64,000 nucleotides of DNA from Burkholderiales bacterium (lineage in GTDB: Bacteria; Pseudomonadota; Gammaproteobacteria; Burkholderiales; Ga0077523): positions 1 to 64,000 of the forward strand of contig JALHMS010000021.1 of NCBI GenBank assembly GCA_022843925.1, written 5' to 3'. The notes beneath the pieces are model-generated. The model had not been told where the DNA came from. It did not search any database and saw only the letters and a program-made list of their open reading frames with translations. The translations under genes were made by a program, and so were the position numbers. This document shows positions 22,257 through 58,072 of the stretch, one piece after another; the stretch's first letter is position 1, and the number at the start of each line of letters is the position of its first letter.

Positions 22257-23086
22257 GGAAATGGTCACAGGTTTTGTAGGAGCGGCCCATGGCCGCGAAA
22301 GCGACGGTTCCGGTCGATGCGCTTCCTTGCATCCACCGCTCTCGGGGGCATGGCCCCCTCCTACAAAGGCGGTGGACGCACCACCAGCCTTGGCAATGGG
22401 TACTGGTTCTGTAGGAGCGGGCCATGCCCGCGAAAGCGTTCGTTCCGGTTGAAGCGTTTCCTTGCATCCACCGCTTTCGGGGCCATGGGCCCCTCCTACA
22501 AAGGCGGTGGACGCACCACCAGTCTTGGCAATGGGTACTGGTTCTGTAGGAGCGGGCCATGCCCGCGAAAGCGATGGTTCCGGTCGATGCGCTTCCTTGC
22601 ATTCACCGCTTTCGGGGCCATGGGCCCCTCCTACAAAGGCGGTGGACGCACCACCAGCCTTGGCAATGGGTACTGGTTCTGTAGGAGCGGGCCATGCCCG
22701 CGAAAGCGAGGGTTCCGGTCGATGCGCTTCCTTGCATCCACCGCTCTCGGGGGCATGGCCCCCTCCTACAAAGGCGGTGGACGCACCACCAGTCTTGGCA
22801 ATGGGTACTGGTTCTGTAGGAGCGGGCCATGCCCGCGAAAGCGAGGGTTCCGGTCGATGCGCTTCCTTACATTCACCGCTTTCGGGGGCATGGCCCCCTC
22901 CTACAAAGGTGGTGGACGCACCACCAGACCGGGAATGGTCACAGTTTCTTGTAGGAGCGGGCCATGCCCGCGAAAGCGATGGTTCCGGTCGATGCGCTTC
23001 CTTACATTCACCGCTTTCGGGGGCATGGCCCCCTCCTACAAGGACATCGCCCCCTCCTACAAGGGTATCGCCCCCTCCTACATTGG
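22193..23086. repeat. Tandem array of inverted REP pairs, exact 135-bp period
   Basis: REP starts (TGTAGGAG) occur at 22275, 22410, 22545, 22680, 22815 and 22950, each exactly 135 bases apart, with one more partial copy at 22193. Each unit holds one REP and, about 70 bases on, the same REP inverted, so each unit can fold into two small hairpins or one long one. Left REPs have stem GCGGGC-CAT-GCCCGC or GCGGC-CCATG-GCCGC; right ones, read inverted, have GGGGGC-CAT-GCCCCC or GGGGC-CCATG-GCCCC, so changes are paired. The array fills the gap between the protease promoter and the 3' end of the glycosyltransferase gene. It ends in three 20-base half-elements (CCCCCTCCTACA) at 23030-23086. Confidence 0.93.
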
Positions 23087-23100
23087 TCGTCGACGAGCCG

Positions 23101-24189
23101 CTACCGGAACTCCCCCGCCAACATCTCCACGATCCGCACCGCGGCTTCCGCCACGCCGGTCGGCGCTGGCGCCTCGGGGGCCGGTGACGCGCACAGATGC
23201 TCCAGCACCGGGACGAACCCGCCTCCCAGAAGATCCGCCTCCGCCACCGGCGCGCACCGGCCGTGGCTCGCGAGCCATCCGGCGAGGTGGGGCTCCTCCG
23301 GCCAGCCGGCCCGGGGGACGTACAGCACGGGACGGCCATTGACGCCCGCCTCTGCCACCGTTCCGTAGCCCAGCTTCGCCACTACGGCGTCGACCGACGC
23401 GAAGACGTCGATGTAGGGAAGCCCCAGGCGCTCGATCGGCACCACCCCGGGGTGATGACCCGCGACCGGCATTCCGCTCACCACGACCCACTCCCCGAGA
23501 TCCGGCCAGCCCGACACGTCGAGGGGGAACGGCACGCCGCCCAGCGACAGCAACGCGAGCCGGGTCGTCGCGGGTCGCCCGAGGCCCTCGAGGAGGGTCG
23601 ACCGATGAGACACCCCGACCCGGCCCACGGGGCCGATGTCGACGAGGTTGGCGAGACCCGGCATCGGGATGCCAGGCGCTGGCCGCAGAAATACGCGGGC
23701 ACTCGCGTAGGCCGCGCGCATCTCCGCCTCGATACCGCCTGCCGCGGACGTGTCGCCGCAGTAGTGCCGGAAGATCTCCCCCCAGTGGAGGCAGCAGAAC
23801 GCGACGGCGGGAATGCCCGCGTGAGCCGCCGCAGCGATCGACAGATAGGGAATGTTTCCCAGAAGGACGGTGGGTCGCAGGGCAGCCAGCGCCTCGGCGG
23901 CTGCTGCGACGCGCGCGGGCCAATCGCCGTGGAGCGTCGTGTAGTGCGCGAGAGAGGCGGGGACGTCGATGTGCAACGCGTCGCGCATGGCCATCCCGAT
24001 ATCGAACGCCTGGGGGATGTGTTCGAACGGCACCCGGACCATCTCGCGCAGCTTCGCCTCGGGAATCGCACAGCGGATGGTGAGCTTCAAGCCAGGCACC
24101 CGATGCGCGACGGCCTCGACCACGGGGGCCGTCATGGCCAGATGCCCGAAGCCGTGGGCGGAGATGTCGGCGACGAGATGGGGAGGCAC
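23101..24189 (-). CDS. GT-B-type glycosyltransferase-like protein
   Basis: 362 residues. It begins LVADISAHGFGHLAMTAPVVEAV, the glycine/histidine loop of MurG/UDP-GlcNAc-2-epimerase-like GT-B folds also seen in the N-terminus of L-arabinokinase-type proteins. The second half has VDAVVAKLGYGTVAEAGVNGRPVLYVPRAGWPEE, the typical donor-binding GT-B region. No membrane segment or signal peptide is seen. It is flanked on both sides by REP elements and has no neighbours on the same operon, so its acceptor is unknown. It might be a glycosyltransferase acting on a small molecule or a nucleotide-sugar epimerase relative. Confidence 0.75.
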   Translation of the reverse strand: MPPHLVADISAHGFGHLAMTAPVVEAVAHRVPGLKLTIRCAIPEAKLREMVRVPFEHIPQAFDIGMAMRDALHIDVPASLAHYTTLHGDWPARVAAAAEALAALRPTVLLGNIPYLSIAAAAHAGIPAVAFCCLHWGEIFRHYCGDTSAAGGIEAEMRAAYASARVFLRPAPGIPMPGLANLVDIGPVGRVGVSHRSTLLEGLGRPATTRLALLSLGGVPFPLDVSGWPDLGEWVVVSGMPVAGHHPGVVPIERLGLPYIDVFASVDAVVAKLGYGTVAEAGVNGRPVLYVPRAGWPEEPHLAGWLASHGRCAPVAEADLLGGGFVPVLEHLCASPAPEAPAPTGVAEAAVRIVEMLAGEFR

Positions 24190-24201
24190 GGCAGGGAATC
24201 A

Positions 24202-24520
24202 GTAGGAGGGGGCCATGCCCCCGAAAGCGGTCGATGCTACGGGAACGCCTCAACCGGAACCATCGCTTTCGCGGCCAGGGGCCGCTCCTACGACGGCGTC
24301 ACTGGTGGTGCCTTTGTAGGAGGGGGCCATGCCCCCGAAAGCGGTTGATGCTGCGCGAACGCCTCAACCGGAACCATCGCTTTCGCGGCCATGGGCCGCT
24401 CCTACAACGGCGTCACTGTTGGTGAATTTGTAGTAGGGGGCCATGCCCCCGAAAGCGGTTGATGCAAGGAAACGCCTCAACCGGAACCATCGCTTTCGCG
24501 GGCATGGCCCGCTCCTACAA
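24202..24520. repeat. Three REP pairs with about 115-bp period
   Basis: Three copies of the TGTAGGAG-type REP pair, starting near 24202, 24316 and 24430. Here the left element has the GGGGGC/GCCCCC stem and the right element the GCGGGC or GCGGCC stem, the opposite order to the 135-bp array. Spacers (CGGTTGATGC...CCTCAACCGGAACCATCG) resemble those of the other array but are shorter. They separate the glycosyltransferase gene from the small gene next to nrdJ. Confidence 0.9.
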
Positions 24521-24538
24521 AAGCGTGGCCCGCCCCAC

Positions 24539-24712
24539 TTACACCACGTCGTCGCCCGACGACAGATCCTGCTGCGCGGCCACGGCGTCGAACAGGTGAT
24601 CGTCCGCCGTTGCCAGTGCGAGATCGGCTGGGAGGTTGTACTCGGCCCACTCGTGGGTGGACGGCTCGCGGACGATGGTGACGGGGGCGGATGAGCGGCT
24701 GAAGAACTTCAT
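24539..24712 (-). CDS. Small hypothetical protein divergent from nrdJ
   Basis: A 57-residue frame beginning MKFFSRSSAPVTIVREPSTH and ending in an acidic tail SSGDDVV. The translation is well mixed in composition, unlike the arginine-rich shadow frames around it, which is why I keep it. There is no signal peptide, membrane segment or known domain, and no clear ribosome-binding site. It starts 278 bases from nrdJ and reads the other way, so both promoters lie in that gap. No function is assigned. Confidence 0.5.
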   Translation of the reverse strand: MKFFSRSSAPVTIVREPSTHEWAEYNLPADLALATADDHLFDAVAAQQDLSSGDDVV

Positions 24713-24990
24713 GATCACGACCGTACGCTAGAGGTGGGTGGGCTGGCTGATGTGTCCACTATCGGTGCCCACCATGAAAACTGTATGAACGCCAGACCCG
24801 CCTGCGCGAGATTTTTTGTGTGTCGTTTCGGGGGCCTGCGGAACCGGTCCTGCGCGGGGGTATGCTCGGCCCATTCCGACGCCATGCCCGGGAGAATCCG
24901 CGTCTCTCCCATCACGTTCCCTGTCCTCCGGGACAGCCCTCCGGAACGCTGAAGAGCAGCGCGCGTCACCACACCGCTGGAGACCTCCGC

Positions 24991-27900
24991 ATGACCACAC
25001 GCGACACCACTCGCCAGGCACCTTCCATCGACACGCTCGCCCCGCAGGAGATCTCGGGAGAGGTCCTGCTCGAGAAGTACGCCAAGGGCCACGAAGCCAC
25101 GCAGTCCGATGTGCGCCGCCGCGTCGCGCGCGCGCTGGCGATGAACGAAGCCGACGACACCCGCGCGAAGTGGGAAGGCCGCTTCCTCGAAGCGCAGGAG
25201 CACGGATTCATCCCCGCCGGCCGGATCAGCTCCGCCGCAGGCACCGCGCTCTCCGCCACGCTCATCAACTGTTTCGTGCAGCCCGTCGGCGACTCCGTCA
25301 CCGAGACCGTCGATGGCCGGCCCGGCATCTACACCGCGCTGGCGCAGGCGGCCGAAACGATGCGTCGCGGCGGCGGCGTGGGCTACGACTTCTCGTCGAT
25401 CCGACCGCAGGGCGCGCTGGTGCGGGGCACGATGTCGCGGGCGAGTGGCCCCGTCTCGTACATGCGCGTGTTCGACCGCTCGTGCGAGACCGTGGAGTCC
25501 GCGGGCTCGCGGCGCGGTGCACAGATGGGCGTGCTCCGCTGCGACCACCCCGACATCGAAGTCTTCATCCACGCGAAGGACCGCGGCGACCTCACCAACT
25601 TCAACGTGTCGGTGGGCGTGACCGACGAGTTCATGCGCGCGGTCGAGACCAACGGCGACGCGATGCTCGTGCACAAGTCCGAGCCCGCCCCAGACGTGAA
25701 GGCCGCGGGCGCGTATCGCCGCGAGGACGGCATGTGGGTGTACCGCAAGCTGCCTGCGCGCGAACTGTGGGACCAGATCATGCGGTCCACCTACGACCAC
25801 GCGGAGCCGGGCGTGCTGTTCCTCGACCGGATGAACCGCGACAACAATCTCTACTACTGCGAGACGATCGAGAGCACGAACCCGTGCGTGACGGGCGACA
25901 CGCGCATCGCGACGCAGTACGGCCTCGTACCGATCGCCGAACTCGAGGCCACGCGCGCGCCGCTGGAAGTCACCGTCGACAAGCGTTGCCTGGGCGCTGC
26001 TGGCACCGGGCGCGGATCGCAGCGTCGCGACGATCGCGGCACCACCGTACGTCCGGCGGTCCCGGCATTCATGACCGCGGCCAGCGCAGACGTGTTCCGC
26101 GTCACGAGCGATGACGGCTTCGAGATCGAGGCCACCGCATGGCACGAGTTCTACACACCGCGCGGCAAGCTGAAGCTGTCCGACCTCGCGGTGGGTGATG
26201 AACTCTGGGTGCAGAGCGGCAAGGGGCAGTTCGGCCGGGCGGGCGATGAATCCCTCGGCGCCTTGATCGGCCTCATCACCGGCGACGGTCACTTCACCAA
26301 CCGCGGCAAGGGGCAGCAGGCGGCGGTGGTGAACCTCTGGAACGGCGACCGGGTCATCGCGGACGTCGTCGCGGCCCACATCAACACCCTCATCGCGGGT
26401 CAGTCGGCAGGGCCTCGCGATTATCAGGTGGGCGTCATGGCGATCCCCCAACGCAATCTCGTGATGCTGCGGTCGGTGCTGCTGGCACGCGCGCTCGAGA
26501 AACTCGGGTTCAATGCGGAATCCAAGCTGCGCGTGCCCGAAGTGATCTGGCGCGGCACGGAAGCCTGCGTGCGCGGCTATCTCCGCGCCCTCTTCCAGAC
26601 CGACGGCACGGTGAACGTGTCCGACAGCAGCCAGTCGTGCTCGGTCCGGCTGACCTCCGTCGAGCGTCCGCTGCTGCGCGATGTGCAGATCCTGCTCGCG
26701 AACTTCGGTGTGCTGAGCCGCATCCACCTGCCCCGCCGCGCCGGCACGCGGATGATGCCCGACGGGCACGGTGGCCACGCGCAGTACGACTGCCGCGATC
26801 TGCACGAACTCATCATCGATGGCGAATCGCGCGAAGTCTTCATGCGCGAGATCGGGTTCCTGCTCGACGACAAGAACGCGAAGTACGCCGCCTGGGCCGC
26901 CGACAAGGTGCTCCGCAAGTCGCAGCGGTTCACGACCCGGATCGCGTCGATCGAACCGTCCGGCCGCAAGCCGGTCTTCGACACCACCCAGCCCGACGGC
27001 AACGCCGTCATCTTCAACGGTCTGGCGACAGGGCAATGCGCCGAGCAGCCGCTTCCGCCCTACGGCTGCTGCGACCTCGGATCCATCAACCTCACGCGCA
27101 TGGTGCGCGACCCGTTCACCGATCACGCGCAGTTCGATTTCGACGCATTCGGCCGCGTCGTGGAAGTGTCGGTGCGCATGCTCGACAACGTGCTTGATGT
27201 CACGTGCTGGCCGCTGCCGGAGCAGCAGGCTGAAGCGATGGCGAAGCGCCGCGTCGGGCTCGGCTTCACGGGGCTCGGCGACGCGCTGATCATGCTGAAG
27301 CTCCGCTACGACACACCCGAGGCGCGGGCCATGGCGACGCGCATATCCGAAACCATGCGCGACCGCGCGTACCTCGCCAGCGTGGGCCTCGCGAAGGAGC
27401 GCGGCGCGTTCCCGCTCTTCAATGCCGACATGTATCTGTCGGGTGGCAACTTCGCTTCGCGCCTGCCGGCGGAGATCAAGCAGCAGATCCGCACGCACGG
27501 CATCCGCAACTCGCACCTGCTGTCGATCGCGCCCACGGGCACCATCAGCCTCGCGTTCGCGGACAACGCGTCGAACGGCATCGAACCGCCCTTCTCGTGG
27601 ACGTACACGCGCCGCAAGCGCATGGCCGACGGCACGTGGAAGGAATACGCGGTGGAGGACTACGCGTGGCGCCTCTTCCGCCATCTGGGCGGCGACACCA
27701 AGCGGCTGCCCGAGTACTTCACGACCGCACTCGCCATCTCGGCGCAGGCCCATGAAGAGATGGTCGCCGCCGTCGCGCCGTTCGTCGACACCAGCATCTC
27801 GAAGACGGTGAACGTGCCGGAGGACTACCCGTACGCCGAGTTCGAAGATCTTTATCTGAAGGCGTGGCGCTCGGGCCTGAAGGGGCTCGCCACCTACCGC

Positions 27901-29043
27901 CCGAACAGCGTGCTGGGTTCGGTGCTGTCGGTCGATTCCCCGGAGGCGAAGGCCGACGAGGAGAAGAAGGCGCCGCAGGACGTCCATCTCGACGAAGCCA
28001 ACCGCCGGCTGTCGATCCAGTCGCTGCCGATGCCGGTGCTGTCGTCGCTCGTGTGGCCGGGCCGGCCGGAGTTGCCGGGCGGGAATCCGTCGTGGACCTT
28101 CATGATCCGGCACCCGGCCGGCGAGTTCGGTCTGTTCGTAGGTCACGTGGAAGAGGAAGGCCGCGCCTTCCCGTTCGAGGTGTGGGTCAACGGCGCGGAA
28201 CAGCCGCGCGGCCTCGGCGCCGTCGCCAAGACGCTCTCGATGGACATGCGCGCGCGCGATCGCGCCTGGCTCAAGCTGAAGCTTGACGTGCTGTCGCGCA
28301 CGCCCGGCGACCAGTCGTTCGAGATGCCCTTCCCGCCCCGCGGCGAACGACGCCTCGTGCCCAGCGTGGTGGCCGGCCTCGGCCAGGTGATCCGCTGGCG
28401 CTGCGAAACCCTCGGCGCGCTCGACGAGAAGGCACCCGACCTGCTGTCCCCCGACGGCCGCCCGCACCCGGTGCTGGATGCCATGTTCGCCGTGGAGGAA
28501 CCCCGCACCGGCACCGACGGCACGCTCGCATGGACCGTCGACATCCAGAACCCGGCGTCGGGCGAGGATTTCGTGCTCGGCCTGAAGGAGATCACCCTCC
28601 CCGACGGCGTGACGCGCCCCTATGCGATGTACCTCGCAGGCTACTACCCGCGCGCCCTGGACGGCCTCGCGCGGCTGCTGTCGCTCGACATGCGCGTGAT
28701 CGATCCGGCGTGGATCGGCATGAAGCTGCGCAAGCTGGTGAACTGGTCCGACCCGCTGGGCGACTTCCTGGCCTTCGTACCGGGCGAGCGCCGGCAGCGC
28801 AACTACCCGTCGACCGTGGCGTACCTGGCGCAGCTGATCCTGCACCGGTACGCGATGCTGGGCGTGCTCGACGCGCAGGGCTATCCGCGGCGCGAGATGG
28901 GCATCCTCGAAACCCCGCGCGAGAGCGGCGGACAGCGCGTGCAGTCGGGCTCGCTGTGCCACGAGTGCGGCAACATGACGGTGATCCGCAAGGACGGCTG
29001 CGATTTCTGCACCGCGTGCGGCGCAGTGGGGACGTGCGGATAG
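24991..29043 (+). CDS. nrdJ: Adenosylcobalamin-dependent ribonucleoside-diphosphate reductase (class II), intein-containing
   Basis: 1350 residues as encoded and 966 after removal of the intein (299-682). It makes deoxyribonucleotides using B12 to generate the thiyl radical. Seen: Cys94 in LINCFVQP, one of the redox pair; [17 protein letters not shown]-type N-terminal region; after the intein [18 protein letters not shown], where the first Cys (residue 683) is the radical-site cysteine of the conserved NPCxEQPLP motif; then [20 protein letters not shown]. The C-terminus has two similar TSCPD-like repeats (about residues 1010-1160 and 1180-1310 of the precursor) and a zinc-ribbon-like end with CxxC...CxxC. 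I chose ATG 24991; the frame is open to 24820 but that part is not conserved-looking. No partner class I genes are present and I see no B12 riboswitch. Confidence 0.95.
25885..27036 (+). mobile_element. Intein with LAGLIDADG homing endonuclease domain inside NrdJ
   Basis: 384 residues, NrdJ positions 299-682, inserted between NP and the radical-site cysteine CAEQPLP. Splicing motifs: Cys299 first residue ([13 protein letters not shown]), block B T382-AW-H385, a DOD endonuclease with block [14 protein letters not shown] (Asp432) and block [15 protein letters not shown] (Asp538), block [21 protein letters not shown]. The C-terminal end is ...ATGQ followed by Cys: glutamine replaces the usual asparagine and glycine replaces the penultimate histidine. 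The +1 Cys is also the catalytic Cys of the reductase, so the enzyme is inactive until splicing occurs. Both endonuclease aspartates are present, so homing activity may be intact. Confidence 0.93.
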
Positions 29044-29088
29044 CGACAGGCGGCCCGTCGCCGGCGTCGGTAGGCGGGGGTGGCCCAT

Positions 29089-29353
29089 TTAGGAGGGGCC
29101 CATGGCCTTGTAGGAGGGGGCCATGCCCCCGAAAGCGGTCAATGCAAGGAGACGCCTCAACCGGATCCATCGCTTTCGCGGGCATGGCCCGCTCCTACAG
29201 AAAGCGTGACCATTTCTTCGGTCGGTGGCGCGTCACGCCCCCTGTAGGAGGGGCCCATGGCCTTGTAGGAGGGGGCCATGCCCCCGAAAGCGGTCAATGC
29301 TGTGAAGCGTTCAACCGGAACCACCGCTGTCGCGGGCATGGCCCGCTCCTACG
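29089..29353. repeat. Two REP pairs downstream of nrdJ
   Basis: Two units starting near 29089 and 29242, each with a short doublet of left elements (TAGGAGGGGCCCATGGCC then TGTAGGAGGGGGCCATGCCC), a spacer, and an inverted right element (GCGGGCATGGCCCGCTCCTAC). They begin 46 bases after the nrdJ stop. The doublet at the left end is specific to this location. Confidence 0.9.
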
Positions 29354-29527
29354 GAAGGTGTGACCGTTGCCGCGGTCGGTGGTGCACCCAGCGGGCTCCG
29401 CCGTCGGCGCACAATCAAGCCCCTAAGGTTTTGACTTGGGCTGGCCGATATCAGTACCCTGAACGCATATCCTTTCCGCATGCAGCCGCAACGCTCGCCA
29501 GCGCCCGCTCACAGACGGAGCCATTCC

Positions 29528-30190
29528 ATGCCCAATCTGCACTTCCTCGCCCGCACCGGTCTCGTGGCCGTGCCCCTTGCCTTGACCCTCATTGCGCCGC
29601 AGACGGCACGCGCGCAAGCCGGCTTCAAGCTTCCCGAGGCGGCCAACCCGGTCACGGGGCTGTATGTGATCGGCACGCTCGGACCTTCCCAGGGCAACGA
29701 CGAGACGGCATCGCTGGCGCGGGCCACGGCAGCGGTGGGTGTGCCGAACAGCACCATCGTCGAATCCAAGCGCTTCACCGGCAGCGTCGGCGTGGGTTAC
29801 CGCTTCAACCAGTACTGGGGTATCGAAGGCGGCTTCGTCGACATCGGTCGGCTCGAGTTGAATGCCTCCGGCACCGGCGAATTCTTCGGCCGATCCAAGA
29901 TGCGCGGCGGCCAGTTCGCCTTGGTGGGCTACCTTCCTGCGACGGACACCCTGTCGTTCTTCGTCAAGTTCGGCGGCGTCTGGGCCCGCACCAACTACGA
30001 AGACAATTTCGGCGGCTCCGACTCTTCGAACAGCCTGCGTTCCTATTGGGGCCTGGGACTGCAGTCGCACTTCAACCGCAACCTGTTCGGGCGCCTGGAG
30101 TTCCTGCGCTACGGCAACATCGGGTCGACGGCCAGCGGCCAGACGAGCTTCAACCATTACATGATGGGCGTGGGCTACCTGATCGATTGA
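29528..30190 (+). CDS. Outer-membrane beta-barrel protein (OmpA/OmpW-like, 8-stranded)
   Basis: 220 residues from the ATG at 29528, preceded by GGAG. Signal peptide ARTGLVAVPLALTLIAPQTARA, then alternating-residue strands typical of small barrels: GLYVIGTLGPSQ, KRFTGSVGVGYRFNQYWGIEGGFVDIG, GGQFALVGYLP, LSFFVKFGGVWARTNY, LRSYWGLGLQSHFN, LFGRLEFLRYGNIG and an end in HYMMGVGYLID without a terminal Phe. It fits the OMP_b-brl family. It is monocistronic, bounded by REP elements upstream and a strong terminator downstream. Function, perhaps surface adaptation, is unknown. Confidence 0.85.
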   Translation: MPNLHFLARTGLVAVPLALTLIAPQTARAQAGFKLPEAANPVTGLYVIGTLGPSQGNDETASLARATAAVGVPNSTIVESKRFTGSVGVGYRFNQYWGIEGGFVDIGRLELNASGTGEFFGRSKMRGGQFALVGYLPATDTLSFFVKFGGVWARTNYEDNFGGSDSSNSLRSYWGLGLQSHFNRNLFGRLEFLRYGNIGSTASGQTSFNHYMMGVGYLID

Positions 30191-30211
30191 GCAACGCGCC
30201 GAGCGCACGAG

Positions 30212-30239
30212 ACAAGGGCGACCTGCGGGTCGCCCTTGT
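30212..30239 (+). terminator. Rho-independent terminator after the outer-membrane protein gene
   Basis: A perfect 12-bp stem, ACAAGGGCGACC at 30212-30223 with GGTCGCCCTTGT at 30228-30239, a TGCG tetraloop, and a T-rich end TTGCTTT directly after. It lies 22 bases past the stop codon. Confidence 0.85.
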
Positions 30240-30249
30240 TGCTTTGCGG

Positions 30250-30450
30250 CGGGGCATGGTGGGCCGGACCCCGAAAGCGGTCGATGCATGGAAGCGTCTC
30301 ACCTGGGACCATCACTATCGCGGCCATGGGCCGCTCCTAAAAAAGTTTGGTCCATTCCGGCGTCAGGTGACGTATCCACCATCCCTGTAGGAGGGGGCCA
30401 TGCCCCCGAAAGCGGTCGATGCCATGGAACCGCTTCGACCGGAACCAGCG
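30250..30450. repeat. Degenerate and partial REP elements
   Basis: One degenerate pair (CCGAAAGCGGTCGATGC near 30270 to GCGGCCATGGGCCGCTCCTA near 30335) followed at 30387 by a left element TGTAGGAGGGGGCCATGCC with no matching right element. They show the same spacer words as the other REP pairs and are decaying copies. Confidence 0.75.
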
Positions 30451-57980: not shown

Positions 57981-58072
57981 GTAGGAGCGGCCCATGGCCG
58001 CGAAAGCGTTGGTTCCTGTCGACGCGCTTCCAGGGCATCCGCCGCTTTCGGGGCCATGGGCCCCTCCTACAA
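57981..58072. repeat. Single REP pair
   Basis: One complete unit: TAGGAGCGGCCCATGGCCGC at the left, a spacer with GGTTCCTGTCGACGCGCTTCC, and the inverted GGGGCCATGGGCCCCTCCTAC at the right. It is the same element as the units of the 135-bp array, here as a single copy of about 92 bases. Confidence 0.88.

Follow-up and report, generated by a model that had tools for sequence, protein, structure and literature searches.

A Gly-Gln-ended class 1 intein at the radical-cysteine codon of a burkholderial nrdJ, and the lineage to which it belongs

The nrdJ gene studied here is interrupted at the codon of its radical-site cysteine by an insert that ends in Gly-Gln, which raises the questions of what the insert is, whether the reductase can be completed around it, and whether such an ending is peculiar to one gene. 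In the window (the whole 64,000-nucleotide stretch of DNA that was analysed), a single open frame on the + strand, from the ATG at 24991 to the stop at 29043, translates into a 1350-aa NrdJ precursor that matches the class II NrdJ model TIGR02504 at 585.2 bits (cut-off 399.95) and has the radical-site cysteine. Its features are the following:

24991 to 25884, + strand: N-extein of NrdJ, residues 1-298, ending TNP (TIGR02504 over the whole precursor; 1xje alignment)
25885 to 27036, + strand: intein, 384 aa, residues 299-682, Cys1 to Gln384
25885 to 25887, + strand: Cys1, predicted first splicing nucleophile (C in 50/50 rows of alignment A2)
26134 to 26145, + strand: block B TAWH, Thr84 to His87 (T and H in 50/50 rows of A2)
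26242 to 26904, + strand: LAGLIDADG endonuclease domain, bounds approximate (PF14528, two stretches)
26284 to 26286 and 26602 to 26604, + strand: putative catalytic Asp134 and Asp240, within the endonuclease domain
26980 to 27036, + strand: blocks F and G, with Asp366 kept, no His, and C-terminal Gly383-Gln384
27037 to 29043, + strand: C-extein of NrdJ, residues 683-1350 and stop (1xje alignment)
27037 to 27039, + strand: Cys683, predicted +1 nucleophile and radical-site cysteine at once (1xje alignment)

A phmmer alignment places both Cys299 and Cys683 of the query on chain Cys322 of T. maritima NrdJ (1xje), which is the thiyl-radical cysteine of the NrdJ family. The +1 nucleophile is therefore the radical cysteine itself, and the junction lies where a previous sequence-only reading had placed it. 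That reading would have been abandoned had the C-terminal junction aligned elsewhere; the alignment kept it directly before Cys683 and, together with the intein models below, bears out an insertion exactly at the radical site. The sizes it had given for spliced NrdJ (966 residues, the two exteins joined) and free intein (384 residues) agree with the arithmetic of the frame. It had further held the extein motif CAEQ to be peculiar beside a usual CGEQ, which did not survive comparison: among 23 intein-free NrdJ relatives the position is Ala in 12 and Gly in 11. The same counts led us to reject the idea that CAEQ results from the intein. Downstream, the window between 27990 and 29040 (NrdJ residues about 1000-1350) encodes a C-terminal extension with a zinc-ribbon-like end and no Pfam match over cut-off; a separate 349-residue frame in another genome (G031:C2:128464-129345) is 52% identical to NrdJ residues 1002-1308.

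The insert matches TIGR01445 over residues 1-91 (33.9 bits, cut-off 24.5) and LAGLIDADG_3 (PF14528) in two stretches (86.9 bits, cut-off 22.5). PF14890 reached 18.9 bits on the intein, below its cut-off of 35.8, its profile had no match over the source genome, and none of the 11 NCBIfam families listed for the insert was a C-terminal intein model; a missing C-terminal model is expected for an odd C-terminal end, but equally for a weak one. In alignment A2, which comprises only 50 rows, Cys1, Thr84 and His87 are present in every row and Asp366 in 45, the other five having Cys. The window intein thus has the Cys1 nucleophile, the block B Thr84-Ala-Trp-His87 and the +1 Cys683 of class 1 inteins; Gln384 stands in place of the C-terminal Asn of that class, and the penultimate and block F histidines, helpful to the class and not strictly needed, are missing. 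Class 3 inteins are without a nucleophile at residue 1 and have a Cys at F:4, and this assignment was rejected because the window intein has Cys1, and Asp366 at F:4. Two LAGLIDADG motifs with putative catalytic aspartates are present, and Asp134 and Asp240 are the same two residues (432 and 538 of the precursor) that the sequence-only reading had picked out. An AlphaFold model of the intein with 5 and 6 flanking residues (pLDDT 92.4, pTM 0.92) has as its best Foldseek matches endonuclease-bearing inteins, 7qsu (E 2.5e-17) and 1dq3, PI-PfuI (E 7.6e-16). Judged by these profiles and the predicted fold, the insert is a class 1 LAGLIDADG intein within NrdJ, probably mobile and self-splicing.

Since the insert is in frame and conserved in two genomes of the genus, it might instead be a permanent NrdJ domain, a reading that the class 1 intein blocks and the endonuclease that it contains, and the intein-free alleles of seven genomes of the genus at the same codon, make exceedingly improbable. 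An assembly artefact was likewise rejected, since the gene recurs, with an intein 97% identical, in another genome of the genus, G006, whose contig is identical in sequence to LNEE01000008.1. Between the source genome (G000) and G006, dN/dS is 0.10 in both the splicing and the endonuclease parts and 0.02-0.05 in the exteins, a pattern that points to purifying selection on the endonuclease part.

The reading that we prefer, with a probability of about 0.88, is an endonuclease-bearing class 1 intein of a distinct Gly-Gln/Gly-Asn lineage at the radical-cysteine codon, splicing by Gln cyclisation and homing into nrdJ. After folding of the precursor, an N-S shift at the Pro-Cys bond would move the N-extein onto Cys1, from which it would pass to Cys683; cyclisation of Gln682 (intein Gln384) to a glutarimide rather than a succinimide would free the intein, and an S-N shift would join ...NP to CAEQ, giving a 966-aa NrdJ with its thiyl-radical cysteine intact. 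The LAGLIDADG endonuclease would cut nrdJ alleles that have no intein, or a different one, at the highly conserved radical-Cys codon, and repair of the cut allele would copy the intein in. In the available text of PMC4031507, Gln is an accepted variant of the last residue, and Gln inteins are reviewed as following the class 1 scheme by way of cyclisation of the Gln.

The Gly-Gln end read from the sequence earlier holds in the translation, and the 18 last residues of the window intein contain no histidine. The two possible places of the block F His, 13 or 12 residues from the end depending on the alignment register, are Gly and Asn, and the penultimate residue is Gly. This is a property of part of the lineage: among 25 inteins ending in GQ or AQ, His is found 13 from the end in 15 and Asn 12 from the end in all 25, and nine, the window intein included, are His-free over the last 18 residues. 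The statement that all GQ inteins are without a block F His was accordingly dropped. All 25 GQ/AQ rows of A2 have Trp86, Lys95, Thr368, Gln369 and Asn373; in its 18 HN/HQ rows, Trp86, Lys95 and Gln369 occur in none, Thr368 in three and Asn373 in ten. These five residues are candidates for a role in the Gln-ended chemistry. In the viral contigs L085, L087, L089, L090 and L092, related inteins ending in GN or RQ have Cys where Asp366 stands in block F.

How common the ending is was surveyed with profile A1, of 11 rows, made from the first inteins collected. At E 1e-10 it matched 39 of 399 genomes of the order, some by inteins of other sites, and 20 of 398 genomes of the phylum; at 1e-30 it matched 40 of 369 genomes of the class, these three genome sets overlapping. 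IMG/VR gave 69 loci, and tblastn of the window intein gave 171 phage and 3 plasmid records. Fourteen weak or partial matches from the order search were left out; ten matches of the class search had no locus, nine of which were added individually, and those of G882 and G1101, short of the intein start, were omitted. From 182 full-length matches, 155 distinct inteins were retained, of which 124 sit at NP/C.E (the slash marks the insertion point) and four at NL/C.E of class I enzymes. At NP/C.E the last two residues are HN in 88, GQ in 24, GN in 7, and AQ, HQ, RQ, SN and AN in one each; all four inteins at NL/C.E end in GN. With 25 of 124 inteins at NP/C.E ending in GQ or AQ, and these in one lineage, Gln is regular there and no quirk of the source genome. 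The earlier remark that a Gln end is rare agrees with the printed record, in that the accessible part of PMC4031507 names three Gln cases, but at this site the ending is a lineage trait. We also set aside an apparent tie between Gln and the radical site (27/128 inteins there, 0/27 elsewhere; Fisher p 0.005), because the sampling profile was built mostly from inteins of that site.

A tree of 124 of the 128 radical-site inteins (near-copies removed, last 14 residues excluded) is divided by a branch with SH-aLRT 100 into 35 rows (24 GQ, 9 GN, 1 RQ, 1 AQ) and 89 rows (85 HN and one each of HQ, GN, SN and AN). By this tree, which came from a quick method and has several long end branches, the Gly-Gln inteins form one deep lineage together with Gly-Asn inteins, the phage SPbeta one among them; the last residue takes four changes overall and the GQ label three. 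The SPbeta-type Gly-Asn inteins nest among the GQ rows with a support of only 85-86, so that the last residue may have gone from Asn to Gln or the reverse.

Whether such inteins splice bears on the supply of reductase. The source genome encodes an intein-free class I NrdA (...SSNLCTEITL...) and an NrdB, both on contig C32, and a search of it for NrdD found none. The sequence-only reading had made DNA-precursor supply dependent on splicing, a claim that the class I enzyme overturns; with no NrdD match, at most the O2-independent supply depends on NrdJ splicing. The same enzyme lends itself to an explanation in which the intein is splicing-impaired, because Gln replaces Asn and blocks F and G have no His, remains mostly as precursor or undergoes N-terminal cleavage, and is tolerated because class I NrdAB provides dNTPs: the class I reductase could make up for an NrdJ that never splices, the end of the window intein is His-free, and changing Gln to Asn makes Pab PolII splicing faster, as described in the open text of PMC4031507. 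We regard this as unlikely, because the exteins are under the strong constraint given above and because His-free GQ inteins occur in the sole reductase found in G1000 (100% complete, 2 contigs) and G065 (93%).

The latter argument extends to other hosts. PF02867 searches of 20 genomes that have an intein ending in GQ or AQ found the interrupted NrdJ as the sole reductase large subunit in six: G065 (93% complete), G800 (99%), G904 (100%), G983 (98%), G1000 (100%) and G768, which is uninformative because its completeness is just 62%. NrdD had no match in these six, and among the 22 genomes tested its one match was a 33-position fragment in G161; RTPR was over its cut-off in none of nine genomes tested, with no match in the six. 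Provided that these hosts cannot live without a reductase and that the searches overlooked none, their inteins have to splice; those of G065 and G1000 have no His in their last 18 residues, like the window intein. The occurrence of GQ-type inteins in the sole reductase of 6/20 genomes suggests that they splice in vivo, and it gives no support to the slow or conditional splicing foreseen in the sequence-only reading. This argument does not reach the source genome itself, since class I NrdA and NrdB are present; for the window intein we infer splicing from the constraint on extein and intein, its intact blocks and its relatives in sole-reductase genomes. More tentatively, and at somewhat less than even odds, the window intein and part of its lineage (9/25 GQ/AQ inteins) may combine Gln cyclisation and a His-free last 18 residues with a different catalytic arrangement (candidates Asn373, Gln369 and Trp86), efficient enough for the only reductase found in near-complete genomes.

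A redox switch would offer another explanation, with a Cys1-Cys683 disulfide forming under oxic conditions so that the O2-independent reductase matures only in a reduced cell. NrdJ is the one O2-independent reductase found in the source genome, beside the O2-dependent class I enzyme and with NrdD unmatched, and the Gln-ended Pab PolII intein splices only after reduction of a Cys1-Cys+1 disulfide, according to the available portion of PMC8175363. GQ-type inteins are also found where NrdJ is the sole reductase found, and both lineages share Cys1 (50/50 A2 rows) and, since the site is defined by it, Cys+1, so that we consider the switch improbable. Interrupted active sites take a further form in G895, where inteins interrupt the two reductase large subunits found, each at the active-site cysteine (C1:2417-5071 and C4:19859-22564; L175, L194): its NrdJ has an HN intein at NP/C and its NrdA a Lys-Asn intein one residue later, at NLC/T. 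This genome had no further PF02867 match and no NrdD match. Profile A1 finds three inteins in each of the NrdJ frames L034 and L093, with one of the three at NP/C.

The preferred reading of a homing intein of the Gly-Gln/Gly-Asn lineage also concerns how these elements are distributed among hosts. Two of the 12 genomes of the genus have this intein (G000, G006) and seven have an intein-free NrdJ; G003, G007 and G008 gave weak matches of class I type only. Besides G006, the nearest relatives of the window NrdJ extein are intein-free NrdJs of the genus (L006, 85.9%, and L009, 82.9%, of the extein compared). NrdJ of L003 is 76.9% identical and its intein just 33%, and the intein of L032 is 68.7% identical with an extein at 73.1%. 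In a host tree built from the exteins of 134/136 rows with enough extein (29 with the Gly-Gln lineage, 82 with the His-Asn lineage, 23 intein-free), to which a long-branch warning applies for viral rows, the Gly-Gln-lineage label takes 23 changes (shuffled mean 26.6; 17/500 shuffles as low). Starred branches force at least 17 of its changes, and with occupied sites alone there are at least 21 changes between the lineages, both of which occur within 6/45 families having an intein at this site. By these counts, the two lineages interchange at the radical-Cys codon and their distribution does not follow the hosts.

One same-genus pair may preserve such an exchange. G904 (L163) has a GQ intein and G1012 (L168) an HN intein, with 117/368 residues identical, while the exteins differ at 61/1819 bases far from the site and at 19/81 bases flanking it (63 upstream and 18 downstream). 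None of 5000 codon shuffles reached 19 differences in such a window; the bounds had been picked from the data before the test, and the largest window anywhere was used in the shuffles to allow for that. Fourteen comparison pairs that are not swaps between the lineages had no marked excess near the site (L042/L045, 8.6 near vs 8.2% far; L043/L044, 19.8 vs 18.6%; in the other 12 the near rate was the lower one), in an ungapped comparison in which the far rates of more diverged pairs may be inflated. Co-conversion during homing would leave such a tract behind. Of five swapped pairs it is clear in this one; the other four, which are more diverged, have none that is clear. Cutting of intein-free alleles would be in keeping with two footprints, sporadic presence and this one tract. 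The interest of the system accordingly lies in the lineage, the interchange and the sole-reductase hosts rather than in a single gene: two deep lineages, one Gly-Gln and one His-Asn, compete for one codon, and in several genomes the gene that contains it encodes the sole reductase found. Swapped hosts, two of them in one genus, provide matched pairs in which last residue, histidines and endonuclease can be compared within near-identical exteins, and they make splicing of a Gln-ended, His-free intein directly testable.

Several known inteins resemble this one in part. The BnrdE intein of the SPbeta/phi3T group (class Ib RNR; NC_001884.1, L152) is 33% identical over its full length, and this group leads the phage matches of the window intein among the 30 listed of 171. 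It lies on the same side of the intein tree, shares the penultimate Gly and sits before the class I radical-site cysteine (NL/CSE), but differs in its Gly-Asn end, a His 12 from the end, its class Ib host and its length of 385 aa. PI-PfuI, an archaeal intein endonuclease that presumably comes from a reductase intein, matches in fold and is a longer chain (454 residues) with 12% identity. The NrdJ-1 split intein, to go by its name and extein motif, presumably originates from an NrdJ intein at the same motif as in the window; it differs in its native exteins NPC / SEI, one residue later and with Ser at +1, in the accessible text of PMC13123727. The parts of PMC4465626 available describe an intein of Azotobacter chroococcum NrdJa (aa 321-690) that, like the window's, is a LAGLIDADG_3 intein in a class II NrdJ; it is absent in A. 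vinelandii and potentially present in a few beta- and gammaproteobacteria. Reductase inteins in phages and SPbeta have long been known (PMC3653736, in part). A C-terminal Gln like that of the window is described for the Chilo iridescent virus RNR, Pab/Pho PolII and Methanoculleus PolII inteins in the available texts of PMC4031507 and PMC549080, and the Chilo intein, likened here by description, is also in a reductase. The Pho and Pab PolII inteins, with solved structures, keep the penultimate and block F His, thought helpful, in the portions available of PMC8229266 and PMC8175363, and the window intein has neither. Among the literature matches listed, from a search that subscription papers mostly lay outside, nothing concerned the Gly-Gln lineage, its interchange with His-Asn inteins or His-free Gln inteins.

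A palindromic unit, GGGGGCCATGCCCCCGAAAGCGGT, has 19 matches with at most 3 mismatches in the window, at 22335-30416 and 58041-58064 (0 expected); 18 of the 19 crowd both flanks of nrdJ, and several ORF calls there consist of repeats.
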